DNA of 32,261 bases, taken from the IMG/VR virus record IMGVR_UViG_3300048580_000710, positions 1 through 32,261 of that record. One strand, 5' to 3'. The notes under the pieces were generated by a model. That model was given only the letters and a program-made list of their open reading frames with translations. It had not been told where the DNA came from and made no database searches. Position 1 is the first letter of the stretch, and every line of letters starts with the position of its first letter. Below are positions 20,024 to 26,557 of the stretch, in pieces. The DNA comes from a virus. The position numbers and the translations under genes are program-made.

Positions 20024-21886
20024 ATGAGTAGTTTTTTATTAAAATCTGGTGAAGTAGGAAACATCGGATTAAAACAAATGAAACTTGTAAGAGAGCAAAC
20101 TATCCAAAAATGGGATAGAATGGGTTTTCTTGAAGGTTTAGATGGTCACACTAAAGATAATGTGGCTCAATTATTCGAAAATCAAGCATCGTTTTTAATT
20201 AACGAAGCAACTGCAACAGATTCGGCAGGTTCTTTCGAAACAGTGGTATTCCCTATCATTAGAAGGGTATTCTCAAAATTATTAGCTAACGAAATCGTTT
20301 CAGTTCAAGCGTTGAACATGCCGATTGGTAGAATTTTCTACTTCGTTCCTAAAATTTCTGAAAGAGTAAATCTTGGTGGTGGTGTGTTTGGTCATTCAAA
20401 TCCTTTTGGTTATCCAAATCCAGGAACAGGTGCTCAAGATACAACAACTTTCCAAACAACAAACTTGTATGATTCTTACTATGATTCAACATCTGGTTTA
20501 GATAACAACCAATTATTTGATAGATCTAAAGGTGCTTACCAAGAATTTACTTCTAACACAAATTCAGGTTTGAGACAAGTTACATTAACTACATTGTCAG
20601 CTGGTACTTCGGTATTCACTACGGTAGCTTCTAACTTAGCAACAGGTTGTACTAGATACGTAACTTTAGAAGTAACAGGTTTTACTTCAGGCGGTGCCGG
20701 TAAAATTATCGGACCAAATGGTAATGAAATGGATTCAGAAGAATTCTTAGCTTCTTTCCAAATCTTAAATAACACTAACTTATTCTGTTGTTCAGGTTCT
20801 ACAGGTGGTGTAGGTTCAGGTGCTGGACCAACTTTATCATATGCAGCTAACAACCCAATTGAATTTAGAGTTGTAACTCAAAAATATTCAAGACAAATCG
20901 TTGATTACTGGAAACAAGTACAAGGTACTTTAGGTGGACAAACAGTTCAATCATCAGCTCAAGACCTTTGTTCAGCAAACGGTTTAATGTATGTTGAAGT
21001 AGATTTAAGTTGCCCAGCAGCTATTAATTCTGATTCAGTAGATGGTTATGTTGGTACATATTTACCAGGTAATGCAGGTGAAACTATTTCTAAGTTTTAT
21101 GCTAAATGGAGACAATATAGAGAATTAGAATTTGAAGCAGCTTTAGGTGAAGTTTCTTTCGAATTAGATTCAGTAACAATCTCTGTAACAGAAAGAAAAT
21201 TAAGAGCACAATGGTCTCCTGAAATGGCTCAAGACGTAAGTGCATTCCATAACATTGACGCAGAAGCTGAATTAACAGCTATTTTATCTGAAGAAATCGC
21301 AGCAGAAATCGATAGAGAAATCTTGAGAGATTTAAGAAAAGCAGCAGCTTGGAGATTAAGATGGGATTGGAACGGTTGGAAGAGATTCGCAGCAGGTCAA
21401 GCACCATACACTCAAAAAGACTGGAACCAAACATTGATTACAGCAATCAATCAAATTTCAGCTCAAATCTTCAAATCAACTTTAAGAGGTGGTGCTAATT
21501 GGATAGTTTGTTCAGCTGAAGTTTCAGCAATCTTTGATGATTTACAATACTTCCACGTTTCAAACGCTAACCCTGAAGAAGATCAATACAATATGGGTAT
21601 TGAAAAGATTGGAACTCTTCAAGGAAGATACAAAGTGTATAGAGATCCATACTTCCCAGCTAACAAAATTTTGATTGGACACAAAGGTTCATCAATGTTA
21701 GATACTGGTTATGTATACGCTCCATACGTTCCATTACAATTAACTCCAACTATGTATAATCCGTTTACATTCGCTCCGATTAAGGGGATAATGACGAGAT
21801 ACGCGACTAAGGTGTTGAATAACAGGTTCTACGGTGTAATTACTGTTGACGGTGTAAGAACATTTAACATTGCTGAATTAAGATAA
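20024..21886 (+). CDS. 23: Major capsid protein, T4 gp23-like
   Basis: A 620-aa HK97-fold capsid precursor, longer than T4 gp23 (521 aa). Family segments are visible: FPIIRRVFSKLLANEIVSVQ near 73-92, an LDSVTISVTERKLRAQWSPE-type region with AQDVSAFHNIDAEAELTAIL near 385-425, and a C-terminal YKVYRDPYFPANKILIGHKG. A gp21-type cleavage site LINE|A lies at E61, close to the T4 site at E65, so the first 61 residues are probably removed. A Gly/Thr/Ser-rich insertion (about 155-310) accounts for the extra length. Codons are less AT-biased (many TTC, AAC, GCT) than in neighbours, fitting high expression. It is 34 nt after the scaffold gene without terminator between, and a strong terminator follows. 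Confidence 0.96.
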   Translation: MSSFLLKSGEVGNIGLKQMKLVREQTIQKWDRMGFLEGLDGHTKDNVAQLFENQASFLINEATATDSAGSFETVVFPIIRRVFSKLLANEIVSVQALNMPIGRIFYFVPKISERVNLGGGVFGHSNPFGYPNPGTGAQDTTTFQTTNLYDSYYDSTSGLDNNQLFDRSKGAYQEFTSNTNSGLRQVTLTTLSAGTSVFTTVASNLATGCTRYVTLEVTGFTSGGAGKIIGPNGNEMDSEEFLASFQILNNTNLFCCSGSTGGVGSGAGPTLSYAANNPIEFRVVTQKYSRQIVDYWKQVQGTLGGQTVQSSAQDLCSANGLMYVEVDLSCPAAINSDSVDGYVGTYLPGNAGETISKFYAKWRQYRELEFEAALGEVSFELDSVTISVTERKLRAQWSPEMAQDVSAFHNIDAEAELTAILSEEIAAEIDREILRDLRKAAAWRLRWDWNGWKRFAAGQAPYTQKDWNQTLITAINQISAQIFKSTLRGGANWIVCSAEVSAIFDDLQYFHVSNANPEEDQYNMGIEKIGTLQGRYKVYRDPYFPANKILIGHKGSSMLDTGYVYAPYVPLQLTPTMYNPFTFAPIKGIMTRYATKVLNNRFYGVITVDGVRTFNIAELR

Positions 21887-21910
21887 TCTATAAGGTTTAA
21901 CTAAAAGAAT

Positions 21911-21946
21911 AATGGGTTAGAATTAAGTTTCTAACCCATTTTTTTT
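21911..21946 (+). terminator. Rho-independent terminator after capsid gene
   Basis: Ten-bp stem AATGGGTTAG/CTAACCCATT with a T8 tail. Confidence 0.88.
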
Positions 21947-22000
21947 GTCCATCATAGAACCTATCGTCAGTATTAAAATAAATGGGTTGAATATAAAAGG

Positions 22001-22031
22001 TTTGACTTTCTTATATTTTTAACTATCTTTG
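22001..22031 (+). promoter_or_regulatory. Bacteroidota-type promoter (TTTG-N19-TATCTTTG)
   Basis: TTTG at 22001-22004 and TATCTTTG at 22024-22031 with exactly 19 nt between: a full match to the Bacteroidota housekeeping consensus. It ends 4 nt before the ATG of the endonuclease gene, so the leader would be very short. It suggests expression by unmodified host RNA polymerase. Confidence 0.7.
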
Positions 22032-22035
22032 TAAT

Positions 22036-23676
22036 ATGGAAAAGATTGATATTGAAAACTATTATAAGGAACATTCTTTCGAAGAAACTGCACTATATTT
22101 TAAAATAGGTAAGAAGAAATTAACTAACTACTTCGAACTTTTTAATATACCTAAAAAAACAAAAGGTGGTCAAAATAGATTGATTAAAAAGTATGATTTA
22201 AACGATAGATGGGATTATTATAATAATCAAATAACAGAAACTACTAAAATAAATAATGTTTGTAAAAAAACAGGTAAAGTATTAAATGATTGGTATAATG
22301 AAGGTGGTTATTTAAGTAGACATTTAAAAACTTTAAATATTGAAGTTCCTAATTTAAACGAAAGAAGAAAGTTTCAAATGGAAACTGGGTTATTATGGTG
22401 GGAACAACATTTTGATTATATTATAGAAAATTTTGAGGTGACTAAGTGTAGGTTATGTGATTTTACAAGTATGGGTACGAATAATTCTAGTGGTATTATG
22501 ACTAAACATATATCAGAATACCATAATAAATCCATATCTGATTATATAACACAATTCCCTAGTGAAGAAAAATTATGGTATAATAAGATAAAAAGAAGTG
22601 AAAAATTATCTAACGATAATTCACGTATATTATGTTTTGAGTGTAATGAATATTTTTACGGATTAACGGAAACTCATTTAAAGAGTGAACATGGAATGTC
22701 AATTAATAGTTATAAGAAAAAATGGGATACCAATATAATCTTTTCAAATGATACTGTGGGAAAATTATCCCAACAAGCCATAGAAATAAATAAAACTTCA
22801 CCAAATCATTTTACTTCCAAACCACAAATAGAATTGGGTGATTTTATTCAAAATGAACTTAAATTATCAATCATTTATAATGATAAGAAAAGTCTAAACG
22901 GTGTTGAGATAGACATACTTATACCTTCTAAAAATATCGGTATAGAGTATAATGGATTATTTTGGCATTCAGAAAAAATGGGTAAACATAAAACATATCA
23001 TCTAAATAAAACAGAGTTGTGTGAAAAAAATAATATTAAACTAATACATATTTTTGAAGATGAGTGGATGGATAAATCCGAAATCGTTAAAAACAGGATG
23101 AGACATATTTTAGGTTGTAATAAAAATAAACTATACGCTAGGAATTGTATTATAAAACAGATTGACAATAAATCTAAGAATATTTATTTAAATAAAAATC
23201 ACTTACAAGGTTCGGATAAATCAAGTATTTTATTGGGTGCGTTCCATGATGATAATTTAGTATCTGTCATGACATTTTCAAAACCTAGAAAATCTTTAGG
23301 TTATACCAATAAAAATGATGAAACCTATGAAATGGTTAGATTCGCTACTGATGGTGTAACCGGAATATCTAGTAAATTATTAAGTCATTTCATTAAAACT
23401 TATAAACCTAAAAAAATAATAACATATGCAGATAGGAGATGGAGTCAAGGTAATCTATATTTAAAAATGGGGTTTAAATTTATTGATTACACTAAACCAA
23501 ATTATTTTTATACTTTAAAATATAAAAATAGGGAGAATAGATTTAACTATCGTAAGGATATATTAGTTAATGAAGGATTTGATCCATCATTAACTGAAAC
23601 TGAAATTATGTATAATCGAGGATATGACAAAATATGGGATTGTGGTTCTTTAAAATTCGAATTAATTATTAACTAA
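22036..23676 (+). CDS. Vsr-like (EDxHD-type) homing endonuclease with zinc fingers and GNAT-like domain
   Basis: A 546-aa composite protein. Residues 1-45 look like a helix-turn-helix. Zinc finger 1 uses C138, C141, H158, H163. Finger 2 uses C200, C203, H214, H219 and resembles MucR/Ros fingers (CFECNEYF, then SEHGMSINSYKKKW). The nuclease core covers about 264-345: V-E291-I-D293-I-L-I-P, IGIE304-YNGLFWHSE, Y-H322-L, HIFEDEW, as in Vsr/EDxHD homing enzymes. Residues about 385-510 form a GNAT-like domain (VSVMTFSKPR, YEMVRFATD, ITYADRRWSQGNLYLKMGF), similar to the Mom-type domain found in some phage proteins. It is a free-standing gene with its own host-type promoter and terminator, inserted after the capsid gene. 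Its target is probably a related phage genome. Confidence 0.85.
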   Translation: MEKIDIENYYKEHSFEETALYFKIGKKKLTNYFELFNIPKKTKGGQNRLIKKYDLNDRWDYYNNQITETTKINNVCKKTGKVLNDWYNEGGYLSRHLKTLNIEVPNLNERRKFQMETGLLWWEQHFDYIIENFEVTKCRLCDFTSMGTNNSSGIMTKHISEYHNKSISDYITQFPSEEKLWYNKIKRSEKLSNDNSRILCFECNEYFYGLTETHLKSEHGMSINSYKKKWDTNIIFSNDTVGKLSQQAIEINKTSPNHFTSKPQIELGDFIQNELKLSIIYNDKKSLNGVEIDILIPSKNIGIEYNGLFWHSEKMGKHKTYHLNKTELCEKNNIKLIHIFEDEWMDKSEIVKNRMRHILGCNKNKLYARNCIIKQIDNKSKNIYLNKNHLQGSDKSSILLGAFHDDNLVSVMTFSKPRKSLGYTNKNDETYEMVRFATDGVTGISSKLLSHFIKTYKPKKIITYADRRWSQGNLYLKMGFKFIDYTKPNYFYTLKYKNRENRFNYRKDILVNEGFDPSLTETEIMYNRGYDKIWDCGSLKFELIIN

Positions 23677-23679
23677 TAA

Positions 23680-23705
23680 GGTGGGATAAACCCACCTTTT
23701 TTTTT
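23680..23705. terminator. Rho-independent terminator
   Basis: Stem GGTGGG/CCCACC with loop ATAAA and T9 tail, between the convergent endonuclease gene and the leftward 23724 gene. Confidence 0.85.
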
Positions 23706-23723
23706 GCTATTTTTTATTTTAAA

Positions 23724-24245
23724 TTAAACCTTTTCATCAAAAAAAACCTCACAATGGTCTTTTGAATACCAACCCATAATACCTTTAGCGCTATTAATTG
23801 ATTTTTCACCAAAAGCATCATTTTCCCCATATCTTAAATTAATCGACATTCTTTTAAACGCAATCTCCCAATGATAAATTGTTGTTTTCACCCAAGAACC
23901 GTGAATTTGAATAATTTCATTTCTATCACAATAACTTTCAAGATGATGCCATATATATCCTTTATCTTTTTTAAATTCTTTTCTTCTTAAAGATATAGAT
24001 TTCTTACGTTTTTTATCCCAATCAAAATAATCCTCATTATCTTTAATTTTAGCAACAGTTCCAGGTTGGAACTCGTTTATTGAACCTATAAGAAAATATT
24101 CTTGAACAATTTTAGGCATAGCATAAAATCCACGTCTAGTTGGTGGTTTATGGAAAGTAGTAGGATTAAACTCATAACCTTTTTGGGTTTTAAGATTAAC
24201 ACCACCAAATCTTACAAATACTTTTAAGTCTTTATTTTTATACAT
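23724..24245 (-). CDS. Conserved hypothetical phage protein
   Basis: A 173-aa basic protein with distinctive segments LKVFVRFGGVNL, TTFHKPPTRRGFYAMP, SLRRKEFKKDKGYIWHHL and HGSWVKTTIYHW. These aromatic and basic motifs look conserved and could bind nucleic acid or a nucleotide, but I cannot name a family. No membrane segment. It is leftward, between the endonuclease and tail-tube regions. TATATTTG (leftward strand, 24273-24280) lies 27 nt upstream of its ATG, a possible host-type -7 box without a clear -33 element. Confidence 0.7.
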   Translation of the reverse strand: MYKNKDLKVFVRFGGVNLKTQKGYEFNPTTFHKPPTRRGFYAMPKIVQEYFLIGSINEFQPGTVAKIKDNEDYFDWDKKRKKSISLRRKEFKKDKGYIWHHLESYCDRNEIIQIHGSWVKTTIYHWEIAFKRMSINLRYGENDAFGEKSINSAKGIMGWYSKDHCEVFFDEKV

Positions 24246-24272
24246 ATAGATTTAAATAAACATTATTTCATA

Positions 24273-24280
24273 CAAATATA
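24273..24280 (-). promoter_or_regulatory. Possible Bacteroidota-type -7 box (TATATTTG)
   Basis: On the leftward strand TATATTTG stands 27 nt before the ATG at 24245. The expected TTTG about 19 nt further upstream is not clear, so support is partial. Confidence 0.35.
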
Positions 24281-24405
24281 GATAAAAATAATCGTATGTA
24301 AAAAAAAATATTCATTTTTTTATTTATCGCGTATTTATTGACTATCAATGAATAAGTAGTTGTTTTTAACGAATAAACCCTTTTAAGATATGGACACGAA
24401 ACGTA

Positions 24406-24688: not shown

Positions 24689-25177
24689 ATGGCAGATTTA
24701 TTAAGCAAAATACCGTTACCATTTGAACCGTTAAGAAAAAATAGGTTTATCGTAAGATTTCCATCAACTTTAGGTATTAACGAATGGTATGTTACATCGG
24801 CAGCAAGACCAACAATAACAATTACCGATACAGAAGTTCCATTCTTAAATACTTCTACATATGTAGCAGGTAGATTTAATTGGGGAACAATTGACGTTAA
24901 TTTCAAAGATCCAATTGGACCTTCAGCATCACAAGCACTTATGGAATGGATTCGTTTATGTGCTGAATCAGTAACAGGTCGTATGGGTTACGCTGCTGGA
25001 TACAAGAAAGATATCGATTTAGAATTATTAGATCCACCAGGAGCTGTAGTTCAAAAATGGAGATTAGAAGGAACATTTATCACATCAGCTAATTTTGGTT
25101 CATTAGATTATAGTTCTAGTGATATTGCAGATATTGCAGTTACGTTACGTCCAGATCGTTGTATATTAGTTTATTAA
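24689..25177 (+). CDS. 19: Tail tube protein, T4 gp19-like
   Basis: A 162-aa protein, matching the length of T4 gp19 (163 aa). The family layout is present: an N-terminal strand region (PFEPLRKNRFIVRFPS), WYVTSAARPTITI, FLNTSTYVAGRFNWGTIDV, SQALMEWIRLCAE and a C-terminal region of ADIAVTLRPDRCILVY type. It polymerises as hexameric rings to form the inner tail tube of the contractile tail. No sheath (gp18) gene is next to it, unlike in T4. It forms a monocistronic unit with its own motif upstream and a hairpin terminator downstream. Confidence 0.93.
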   Translation: MADLLSKIPLPFEPLRKNRFIVRFPSTLGINEWYVTSAARPTITITDTEVPFLNTSTYVAGRFNWGTIDVNFKDPIGPSASQALMEWIRLCAESVTGRMGYAAGYKKDIDLELLDPPGAVVQKWRLEGTFITSANFGSLDYSSSDIADIAVTLRPDRCILVY

Positions 25178-25573: not shown

Positions 25574-25930
25574 ATGTGTTATAAAAGAGTGATGATAATT
25601 GACGAGGATATATTATCAAATATCCTTAATTCTAAAATTATAAATAACAACCTTAAAGGTGTTATAACATATGATTTTATAGACGCTAATTTCGCATTGA
25701 ATTTTTTAACTAAAAACCAAGTAGATTTAATTGTAATTGAAAAGAGTTTAGTTAAAAGAAATATTGAAAAAATAAAAGGGTGTCAAAAAAACACCCCTAT
25801 TTTTCTTTTAACAGATAAGTTTGAAACTGAATTTTTTAAAAAATACCCAACTATTAATAATTATATTAGTAACCCAATATTAAAATCAAATACGCATATC
25901 ATAGAAAAGGTTATCTTTCAGAATCCTTAA
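25574..25930 (+). CDS. Degenerate response-regulator receiver (pseudo-receiver)
   Basis: A 118-aa protein (112 aa if started at M7, 25592) with CheY-like topology. An acidic pocket IIDED (8-12; D10, E11, D12) follows strand 1. A hydrophobic strand DLIVIEKSL (51-59) carries Glu56 where the phospho-accepting Asp normally sits. The conserved Thr is present in IFLLTDK (T80). The conserved Lys before Pro is replaced by Asn (ISNPI, N100). No output domain follows. A Glu at the Asp site can mimic phosphorylation, so the protein may be a constitutive decoy or adaptor. The fold call is by pattern, moderately sure; the function is inferred. Confidence 0.65.
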   Translation: MCYKRVMIIDEDILSNILNSKIINNNLKGVITYDFIDANFALNFLTKNQVDLIVIEKSLVKRNIEKIKGCQKNTPIFLLTDKFETEFFKKYPTINNYISNPILKSNTHIIEKVIFQNP

Positions 25931-25935
25931 TATTA

Positions 25936-26241
25936 TTATCCGATATTATTGATTGTATGTATAATATTTGTTTTCGTTTGTAAACCTATAATTTTATTTT
26001 TAATTTCACCTTCTTTAATGAATAAAAGTGTTGGAACCGACATAATTTGATACATACTGGCTAATTCCATATTTTCATTAATATCGATATAATGAACATC
26101 AATATTATCGGACATTTCTTTTGAGATTTCTTCCATCACAGGTTTTAATATTTTACAAGGACCACACCAAGCCGCACTGAAGTATAAAATACTTACCTTC
26201 CCATTATTTAAATTTAATTCGTTATTTTGTATTACTTTCAT
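25936..26241 (-). CDS. Thioredoxin (second of tandem pair)
   Basis: A 101-aa classical thioredoxin: SAAWCGPCK with C26 and C29, followed by the alpha-2 helix ILKPVMEEIS, and cis-proline in MSVPTLLFI. I start it at the ATG at 26241; a TTG nine bases upstream is also in frame. Its start overlaps the end of the preceding thioredoxin gene by 20 nt, so translation is probably coupled. Active as a cytoplasmic disulfide reductant; possible uses are support of a phage ribonucleotide reductase or a role as a polymerase processivity factor as in T7. Confidence 0.9.
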   Translation of the reverse strand: MKVIQNNELNLNNGKVSILYFSAAWCGPCKILKPVMEEISKEMSDNIDVHYIDINENMELASMYQIMSVPTLLFIKEGEIKNKIIGLQTKTNIIHTINNIG

Positions 26242-26557
26242 TATTTTCAATTTCTTTTATAATTTCAATTATTTGTTCTTTCACTAAAGAACCTTCTTTA
26301 TTCATCATTAATGTTTCATTCTTTACAAAGTAAAATGCTGGAACAATAGGAATACGAAATGTTGAATCCACAAATTCTTTATTAATATCAACATCGACAT
26401 TATAAACATCAACTGTTTCTTTATATTCTTCCGATATTTCTTCAAGTAATGGTTTCATATGATTACAAGGCCCACACCATTTAGCGGTGAAACAAATCAA
26501 ACTAGTTTTTTCTTGATTTAAATCAAACTTATTTATACCTTCTAAATTAATCATCAT
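26222..26557 (-). CDS. Thioredoxin-like protein (first of tandem pair)
   Basis: A 111-aa protein with the active site TAKWCGPCN (C28, C31), alpha-2 MKPLLEEISEEY, and cis-proline in IPIVPAFYFV. It is more diverged around the active site (His and Met after the second Cys) than its neighbour, suggesting a different partner. Its ATG overlaps the stop of the zinc-ribbon gene (ATGA), and it overlaps the second thioredoxin downstream. The two thioredoxins look like an old duplication with specialisation. Confidence 0.88.
   Translation of the reverse strand: MMINLEGINKFDLNQEKTSLICFTAKWCGPCNHMKPLLEEISEEYKETVDVYNVDVDINKEFVDSTFRIPIVPAFYFVKNETLMMNKEGSLVKEQIIEIIKEIENNESNTK

Follow-up and report, generated by a model that had tools for sequence, protein, structure and literature searches.

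Free-standing homing enzymes must avoid destroying their carrier genome. In work by Sandegren in 2005, Hef reportedly cut hef-less DNA and its own DNA alike, and if this is so, a mark built into the enzyme would answer how the carriers survive. GNATs act mostly on amines of proteins and small molecules. Hef-like enzymes are listed among the free-standing homing endonucleases in a passage of PMC3296691, while passages of PMC2988022 place mobE between nrdA and nrdB and describe U5 hef as cutting nrdB. Fusions of Mom with nucleases were published in 2021, and the passages of that paper on these proteins carry a restriction-modification prediction (PMC7824862); both the domain pairing and the idea of cutting plus modifying are thus already in print in that form. 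The words 'homing', 'EDxHD' and 'Vsr' are absent from the main text of the same paper. Our literature search found no paper combining Mom, GNAT, homing endonuclease and phage. Those papers on homing endonuclease together with GNAT of which passages were checked proved unrelated, and the passages checked of PMC10448857, PMC12350094 and PMC13096335 held no Mom or acetyltransferase domain.

The window analyzed here is a 32,261-nucleotide stretch, positions 1 to 32,261 of a virus record (IMGVR_UViG_3300048580_000710), in which a homing gene sits between the major capsid gene gp23 and a gp19-like tail tube gene (Table 1). The coordinates that the initial annotation gave for this open reading frame were verified, and the frame is very probably a Hef-like free-standing homing endonuclease gene. 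The encoded protein matches phrog_3339 'homing endonuclease' (E 1e-105). By tblastn, its relatives were found at 1,014 places in 406 of 50,697 phage records, and the last 181 residues alone gave matches in 372 phage records. Depositors label the relatives 'Hef-like homing endonuclease' or 'putative nuclease/acetyltransferase protein'. No PADLOC defence model matches the window protein; the member of E. coli phage LH2 matches the PADLOC 'HEase' homing endonuclease model (E 3.4e-5). The search for related loci gave no match with the single window protein as query, while an alignment query did retrieve loci.

Two collections of family members were used. The alignment A3 (73 rows) includes the window protein and 72 relatives from viral contigs, taken out of 92 distinct available ORFs and drawn from the best 80 of 570 confirmed stretches, and thus favours members with both domains. 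Pfam matches among its rows were MTES_1575 nuclease (42), Mom (29), DUF7487 (24), Ros/MucR (18), DUF4379 (18), DUF723 (13), CapR (7) and Acetyltransf_1 (6); for the window protein on its own, Ros/MucR was the sole Pfam match above cut-off. The second collection came from separate searches with a nuclease model and a GNAT model (strong places, E under 1e-19 and under 1e-30, respectively) through 36 records, namely 12 phage records and 24 virus contigs, the latter taken from 80 fetched loci mainly by length. The 181 ORFs recovered were merged into 103 distinct ones: 94 with both domains, three with the nuclease only, two with the GNAT domain and no EDxHD nuclease, and four with a weak nuclease only. 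From the letters alone, the gene had been described as a composite homing enzyme with a helix-turn-helix (HTH), two zinc fingers, a Vsr-like nuclease and a GNAT/Mom-like domain. This architecture was read correctly, and the composite of Vsr-like nuclease and Mom-like GNAT domain is supported by profile, fold and comparative genomics.

Table 1. Features of the window and of related loci. Positions refer to the window unless another locus is named.
Feature	Position	Strand	Basis or remark
gp23 major capsid gene	20024..21886	+	Pfam Gp23 E 1.1e-73
Inserted segment, 1785 bp	21890..23674	.	16 bp instead in L282, L283, L284, L290, L343
Terminator-like hairpin between gp23 and homing gene	21911..21940	+	
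Promoter-like sequence just before homing gene, including TTTG...TATCTTTG	about 22001-22029	+	
Probable Hef-like free-standing homing endonuclease gene, 546 aa	22036..23676	+	ORF, profile and tblastn relatives
Possible HTH, residues 1-40, three short helices	22036..22155	+	model secondary structure
Zinc finger 1, C138/C141/H158/H163	22447..22524	+	sequence; residues recur in part of family
Zinc finger 2, C200/C203/H214/H219, Ros/MucR type	22633..22692	+	Pfam PF05443, 2jsp
EDxHD/Vsr-type nuclease, residues 259-365 (E291, D293, E304, H311, H322, K325)	22810..23130	+	profile and fold
Mom-like GNAT core, residues 366-495 (H389, R435, G443, S446, D466, Y475)	23131..23520	+	fold, hhalign, conservation
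Conserved C-terminal tail, residues 496-546 (R499, K507, E521, D535, G537)	23521..23673	+	conservation
Terminator-like hairpin after homing gene	23678..23698	+	empty-site relatives have one here (by eye)
173-aa gene beside homing gene	23724-24245	-	weak WHH/colicin-DNase matches, E 0.03-0.06
gp19-like tail tube gene	24689-25177		phrog_4542 E 3.9e-30
Receiver-like ORF downstream of gp19	25574-25930	+	E 0.02
Thioredoxin-like ORF downstream of gp19	25936-26250	-	by eye
Mom-like GNAT fused to GIY-YIG, behind gp23	L278 953-2455; L279 1268-2770; also L350, L352, L353		
Second family member before gp19 in close relative L343	L343 1445-3010	-	absent from window

The N-terminal region bore out the earlier description in part. 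Helices at residues 6-12, 15-21 and 26-35 are predicted by the AlphaFold2 model and are what the possible HTH is based on, residues 1-40 having no match to Pfam profiles. The residues proposed for the first zinc finger are shared by some of the family members (C138 in 38, C141 in 20, H158 in 20 and H163 in 21 of the 73 rows), and this finger of the window protein has no Pfam match at E 1. The second C2H2 finger was confirmed by Pfam ROS_MUCR (E 2.5e-6) and by the solved Ros finger 2jsp (E 0.005).

For the nuclease, the A3 profile matches 3r3p (I-Bth0305I) with E 1.2e-4. When modelled by itself, this domain reached a pLDDT of 90.2 and its best solved match was 3r3p again (E 3.0e-4, Z 12.4, 94 residues), followed by the endonuclease-like protein 3hrl (Z 12.3) and Vsr 1cw0 (Z 12.0). 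The NCBIfam XF1762 and Vsr matches were far under their cut-offs. The EDxHD-like residues that had been picked out by eye as those of a Vsr-like nuclease, E291, D293 and H322, are conserved in 68, 73 and 73 of the 73 rows, as are H311 and K325 (73 each) and E304 (72). Among the 94 two-domain members, D293, H311 and K325 are each present in all 94 and H322 in 92.

The AlphaFold2 model built on A3 (mean pLDDT 91.9, pTM 0.70) shows between residues 372 and 494 the order of strands and helices that is the GNAT order. In a Foldseek search of the PDB with the window model, the top solved structure was Mu Mom, 8bv8 (E 7.3e-7), confirming a GNAT-like region at the C-terminus; its extent, previously given as 385-510, is larger, about 366-546. 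Mom also came first in VIA-align (8bv8_A, Z 13.4, rmsd 3.9, 164 aligned, model residues 368-546), and other GNATs, including many protein acetyltransferases, tie with it at Z 13.3 downward (Z 12 to 13.3). The window protein itself has no match to the Pfam Mom model at E 1, but 29 of the 73 aligned members match it (best E 1.4e-8). Against nine sequences of Mom, hhalign returned E 6.3e-4 and 2.2e-4, with low probabilities of 28 and 45 percent. The GNAT-only profile A2 had no match in the PDB, and it was the fold, together with Pfam matches in relatives, that led to Mom.

By hhalign, R435, S446, D466 and Y475 are equivalent to R111, S124, D149 and Y159 of Mom; H389 was paired with Mom H58 by eye. 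Besides S124, we take R111, D149, Y159 and H58 to be functional residues of Mom. The title of 8bv8 calls Mom S124A inactive. Among the 94 two-domain members, H389, R435, G443 and Y475 are each found in 93, position 466 is D in 85, N in six, E in two and Q in one, and the site equivalent to Mom S124 carries S in just 69. If either D or N is accepted at position 466, 87 members have both residue sets intact; the GNAT set alone is altered in five, three of these by the change of D466 to E or Q, the nuclease set alone in one, and both sets in one. Mean pairwise identity is alike for the two domains (0.42 and 0.43, 60 of 94 sampled). The putative active-site and cofactor-loop residues are conserved almost as well as those of the nuclease. 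In 11 distant phage proteins from nine host genera (E. coli LH2 and F26, Acinetobacter Kimel, Thermus TMA, Caulobacter Cr30, Salmonella Akira, Xanthomonas phiL7, Vibrio YC and VAP7, Bacteroides DAC16 and Klebsiella RCIP0030), H389, R435, G443, Y475, D293, E304, H311 and K325 are all kept. Exceptions at other positions include D466 (N in three, S in VAP7, A in phiL7), H322 (L in TMA) and E291 (S in Cr30). The second family copy of L343 also keeps H389, R435, G443 and Y475. Since the key residues are conserved over such long distances, the GNAT domain is probably an active enzyme.

The two domains are closely coupled. Within the 36 records, 102 strong nuclease places (49 + 53) and 100 strong GNAT places (48 + 52) were detected, and 98 of the 102 nuclease places adjoin a GNAT place. 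Two weaker GNAT places, excluded from these counts, are stand-alone Mom-like ORFs without nuclease in contigs G012 (E 7e-10) and G013 (E 1.7e-9). The G012 protein (L363) is 262 aa long and has Mom-like motifs by eye. Both strong GNAT places without an EDxHD nuclease come from 500-aa proteins that lack the core of this nuclease, retain a short stretch resembling its end (by eye) and then have a GIY-YIG domain. This form, a Mom-like domain with GIY-YIG, is present in five contigs (L349-L353), with gp23 upstream in all five; the four scanned match Pfam GIY-YIG with E 9e-9, 2.6e-11, 7.1e-6 and 1.1e-6. In L351, a nuclease-Mom member sits between gp23 and the GIY-YIG form; L354 matches the GIY-YIG part only.

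Losses in the other direction were also found. In L187 (Los1) and L277 the GNAT core is lost, the nuclease is kept and a piece of the C-terminal tail remains (by eye); the protein of L275 has nothing beyond the nuclease; and in two PALS_2 proteins (L217) the nuclease is divergent and the C-terminus no longer matches GNAT. Five distinct proteins of the 36 records therefore keep the nuclease with the GNAT part lost or non-matching, and only two lost the EDxHD nuclease, both carrying GIY-YIG instead. Homing nucleases of two kinds are found fused to the GNAT domain. This domain is also losable, and since the five proteins keep their nuclease after its loss, it is not always needed. The genomes of the GNAT-deleted and degenerate proteins hold other GNAT-bearing members, a co-occurrence that is uninformative because possession of a member was the selection criterion for every record; rescue of the GNAT-less copies in trans is possible. 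The tail piece surviving in L187 and L277 may point to a role of the tail apart from the GNAT core.

In record F336, a GNAT place lies next to 10 of the 11 nuclease places if a 182-aa piece is counted, and the eleventh nuclease place, in a 379-aa frame, resembles the Los1 deletion form. BFVD holds 182-aa and 133-aa proteins that match the GNAT part only. The 182-aa protein, which belongs to F336, was considered as a GNAT standing alone and rejected: it lies in a 334-aa open frame with an intact-looking nuclease, separate from the upstream annotated gene, and its form reflects annotation or a detached N-terminus. This member (L364 2089-3507; 123138-125035 of the F336 record) is annotated as two or more genes.

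The insertion site was examined with a gp23-seeded search blind to the homing gene, which gave 69 loci. Twelve close relatives reaching past the gp23 3' end (L280-L290 and L343), with gp23 segments 87-99 percent identical to the window, are all without the gene behind gp23. In the five relatives with 16 bp at the site (Table 1), homology ends at 21889, three bases past gp23, and restarts at 23675. Five others (L281 and L285-L288) have a 546-bp segment instead, read in L281 as a 137-aa gene, and L289 and L280, with 18 bp and 105 bp at the site, also lack the next window gene. The member in L343 is a different one, on the opposite strand. Among the 44 gp23 loci with 2 kb downstream, a member lies within 1.5 kb in four (that of L343 counted) and none in 40. 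A second case of presence and absence is L315, with the gene, against L306 and L336, without it, which are about 90 percent identical nearby; there the gap contains other DNA.

The flanks of the insertion are divergent. On the left, mismatches per 100 nt toward the insertion rise as 2, 4, 7, 14 against L280 and 2, 5, 8, 14 against L282; on the right, against L282, they are 13, 18, 19, 14, then 3, 4, 8, 5, 3, 1, 2, 0. As control, L282 against L284 gives 0, 0, 1, 1 on the left and 3, 8, 3, 12, 8, 6, 0, 3 on the right. The signal is not clean: the gene-less pair L282 and L280 also rises on the left (0, 7, 11, 10), and farther upstream in gp23 the divergence of the window from L282 returns to high values, 12-20 per 100. 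Over the final 100 nt of gp23, the window has 14-16 mismatches with L280, L282-L284, L288, L290 and L343 and 20 with L281, L285-L287 and L289; measured against L282, the loci L282-L284, L288, L290 and L343 differ by 0-3 and the others by 6-11. The same residues are encoded in the last 38 gp23 codons of the window and L282. A donor of the divergent gp23 tail was sought among the gathered loci, and none was closer than the gene-less sisters. To judge from these comparisons, the flank divergence fits co-conversion during break repair; selection for silent escape from cutting would give a similar pattern.

The N-terminus is linked to the locus. The window-type N-terminal region occurs in 19 of 97 member ORFs, 18 of which are within 1.5 kb of gp23, while upstream of the nineteenth the contig extends for just 24 bp. 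Among the remaining 78 ORFs, two are by gp23 and 38 by gp19 (Fisher p 2e-16 for N-terminus against gp23 locus, relatedness not corrected for). In four of the 18 (L014, L022, L027 and L061) the gene and gp23 are tail to tail, indicating that the site is used in both orientations. Insertion is at the gp23 3' end, which is also presumed to hold the target of the enzyme. Distances of the homing gene and of gp23 correlate among 16 phages (Spearman 0.69, Mantel p 0.0005), and free jumping between distant phages was therefore not borne out. Homing by the window gene is well indicated by these patterns, and from them we infer site-specific cutting and active transfer.

Terminator-like sites in 21700-24400 number four against a shuffle mean of 0.8. 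Promoter matches in the region show no excess (22 against a shuffle mean of 20.2); the sequence just before the homing gene resembles what we take to be the Bacteroidota promoter consensus, a hint at the host. The place of the 173-aa gene is taken by other content in L281 and L285-L288 and by nothing in L289.

The following mode of action is proposed. A free-standing homing gene would live behind gp23, its zinc-finger N-terminal region would recognise a site at the gp23 3' end, and its EDxHD/Vsr-type nuclease would cut gene-less phage genomes, into which repair from the carrier would copy the gene with its flanks. The Mom-like GNAT domain would use acyl-CoA to modify bases (most probably adenine) of DNA that the same chain holds, and this modification would make carrier DNA a poor substrate, so that cutting would fall on incoming gene-less genomes. 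We lean towards DNA as the substrate of the GNAT domain; that this domain protects its carrier has slightly less than an even chance, and we place the whole chain, from homing at the gp23 site through acyl-CoA-dependent DNA modification to carrier protection, just short of an even bet as well. More tentative is a self-immunising homing gene, in which one chain would cut the gp23 site in gene-less phages and mark the carrier copy by Mom-type acylation through the same DNA-binding region, the mark-making half being joinable to EDxHD or GIY-YIG cutters at the same locus. The cut-and-protect pair suggested in the initial annotation is plausible. The GNAT part was observed to be lost or altered more often than the nuclease; a strict form of the idea predicts the opposite, and the GNAT losses count against protection being essential.

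Four other explanations were weighed. An unlikely one is a one-chain restriction-modification weapon, in which the Mom domain would modify the phage genome broadly and the nuclease would attack unmodified host or rival DNA at many sites, homing being secondary or absent. This is the reading of such fusions in the passages on them in PMC7824862, and it is favoured by genomes that hold multiple members (Los1 with 10 GNAT places, LR756500 with nine). It conflicts with the tie of the window-type N-terminus to one locus, with the presence/absence polymorphism of the gene, with the nuclease being kept after GNAT loss (three deleted and two degenerate proteins), and with the PADLOC results, in which the window protein matches no defence model and the LH2 member matches a homing endonuclease model. 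About equally improbable is an ordinary homing endonuclease whose immunity comes only from the insertion and the silent gp23 changes, the role of GNAT being minor and unrelated. Either the insertion or the silent changes might be enough to protect the carrier, and the 14-16 (or 20) mismatches with gene-less relatives at the end of gp23 agree with this; such an enzyme, however, leaves unexplained a GNAT domain whose residues are kept in nearly all members. Hef reportedly cutting its own DNA too also speaks against it.

The two remaining explanations concern the GNAT domain itself. It might acetylate a host or phage protein, or the enzyme itself, and so tune cutting or help infection. The usual substrates of GNATs, the protein acetyltransferases that tie with Mom in the fold comparison and the incomplete conservation of the S124 position (69 of 94) would all suit such a role, but the best single match is a DNA-modifying GNAT and the domain shares its chain with DNA-binding and DNA-cutting domains, a second kind of nuclease included; we consider this about as improbable as the two explanations above. 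Least probable by some way is a GNAT fold that serves as a structural or DNA-contacting part without catalysis. The tail piece that outlives GNAT deletion suggests that part of the region may be structural, whereas the putative active-site and cofactor-loop residues are conserved nearly like the nuclease. If the Mom-like half does mark DNA against the nuclease half, as we prefer to read it, the problem of self-cutting would be solved within the enzyme itself, across a family that occurs in some 400 phage records and includes Hef-type genes of T4-like E. coli phages. With single-residue mutants it would become possible to test self-protection in a free-standing homing enzyme, and the family would supply DNA-modifying enzymes with their own exchangeable DNA-binding regions.

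Compared with known systems, the nuclease is like I-Bth0305I, an EDxHD homing endonuclease, in fold and profile, the comparison being with its catalytic domain only. Mu Mom is the closest solved structure to the GNAT domain, with the same fold and aligned R, S, D and Y residues; it differs in being a 241-aa protein without nuclease and is remote in sequence. The Acinetobacter 'putative nuclease/acetyltransferase protein' belongs to the same family, has both domains and lies beside gp23 in Kimel; its name is the depositor's label, without mechanism in the record. Hef and Hef-like enzymes (U5 Hef and F-Lim of LIMEstone1) are of the same family as the window protein by profile, a likeness resting on annotated Hef-like proteins, and differ from it in N-terminus and in target gene, which here is gp23. 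The two-domain members of LH2 and F26 lie between nrdA and nrdB, the mobE/hef region as placed in passages of PMC2988022. The Mom-REase fusions of jumbo phages have the same architecture as described in passages of PMC7824862, where five 'momylating enzymes' are given for PA5oct, presumably the same as the five GNAT places detected here; these fusions were read there as restriction-modification, whereas the window member is read as a homing gene.
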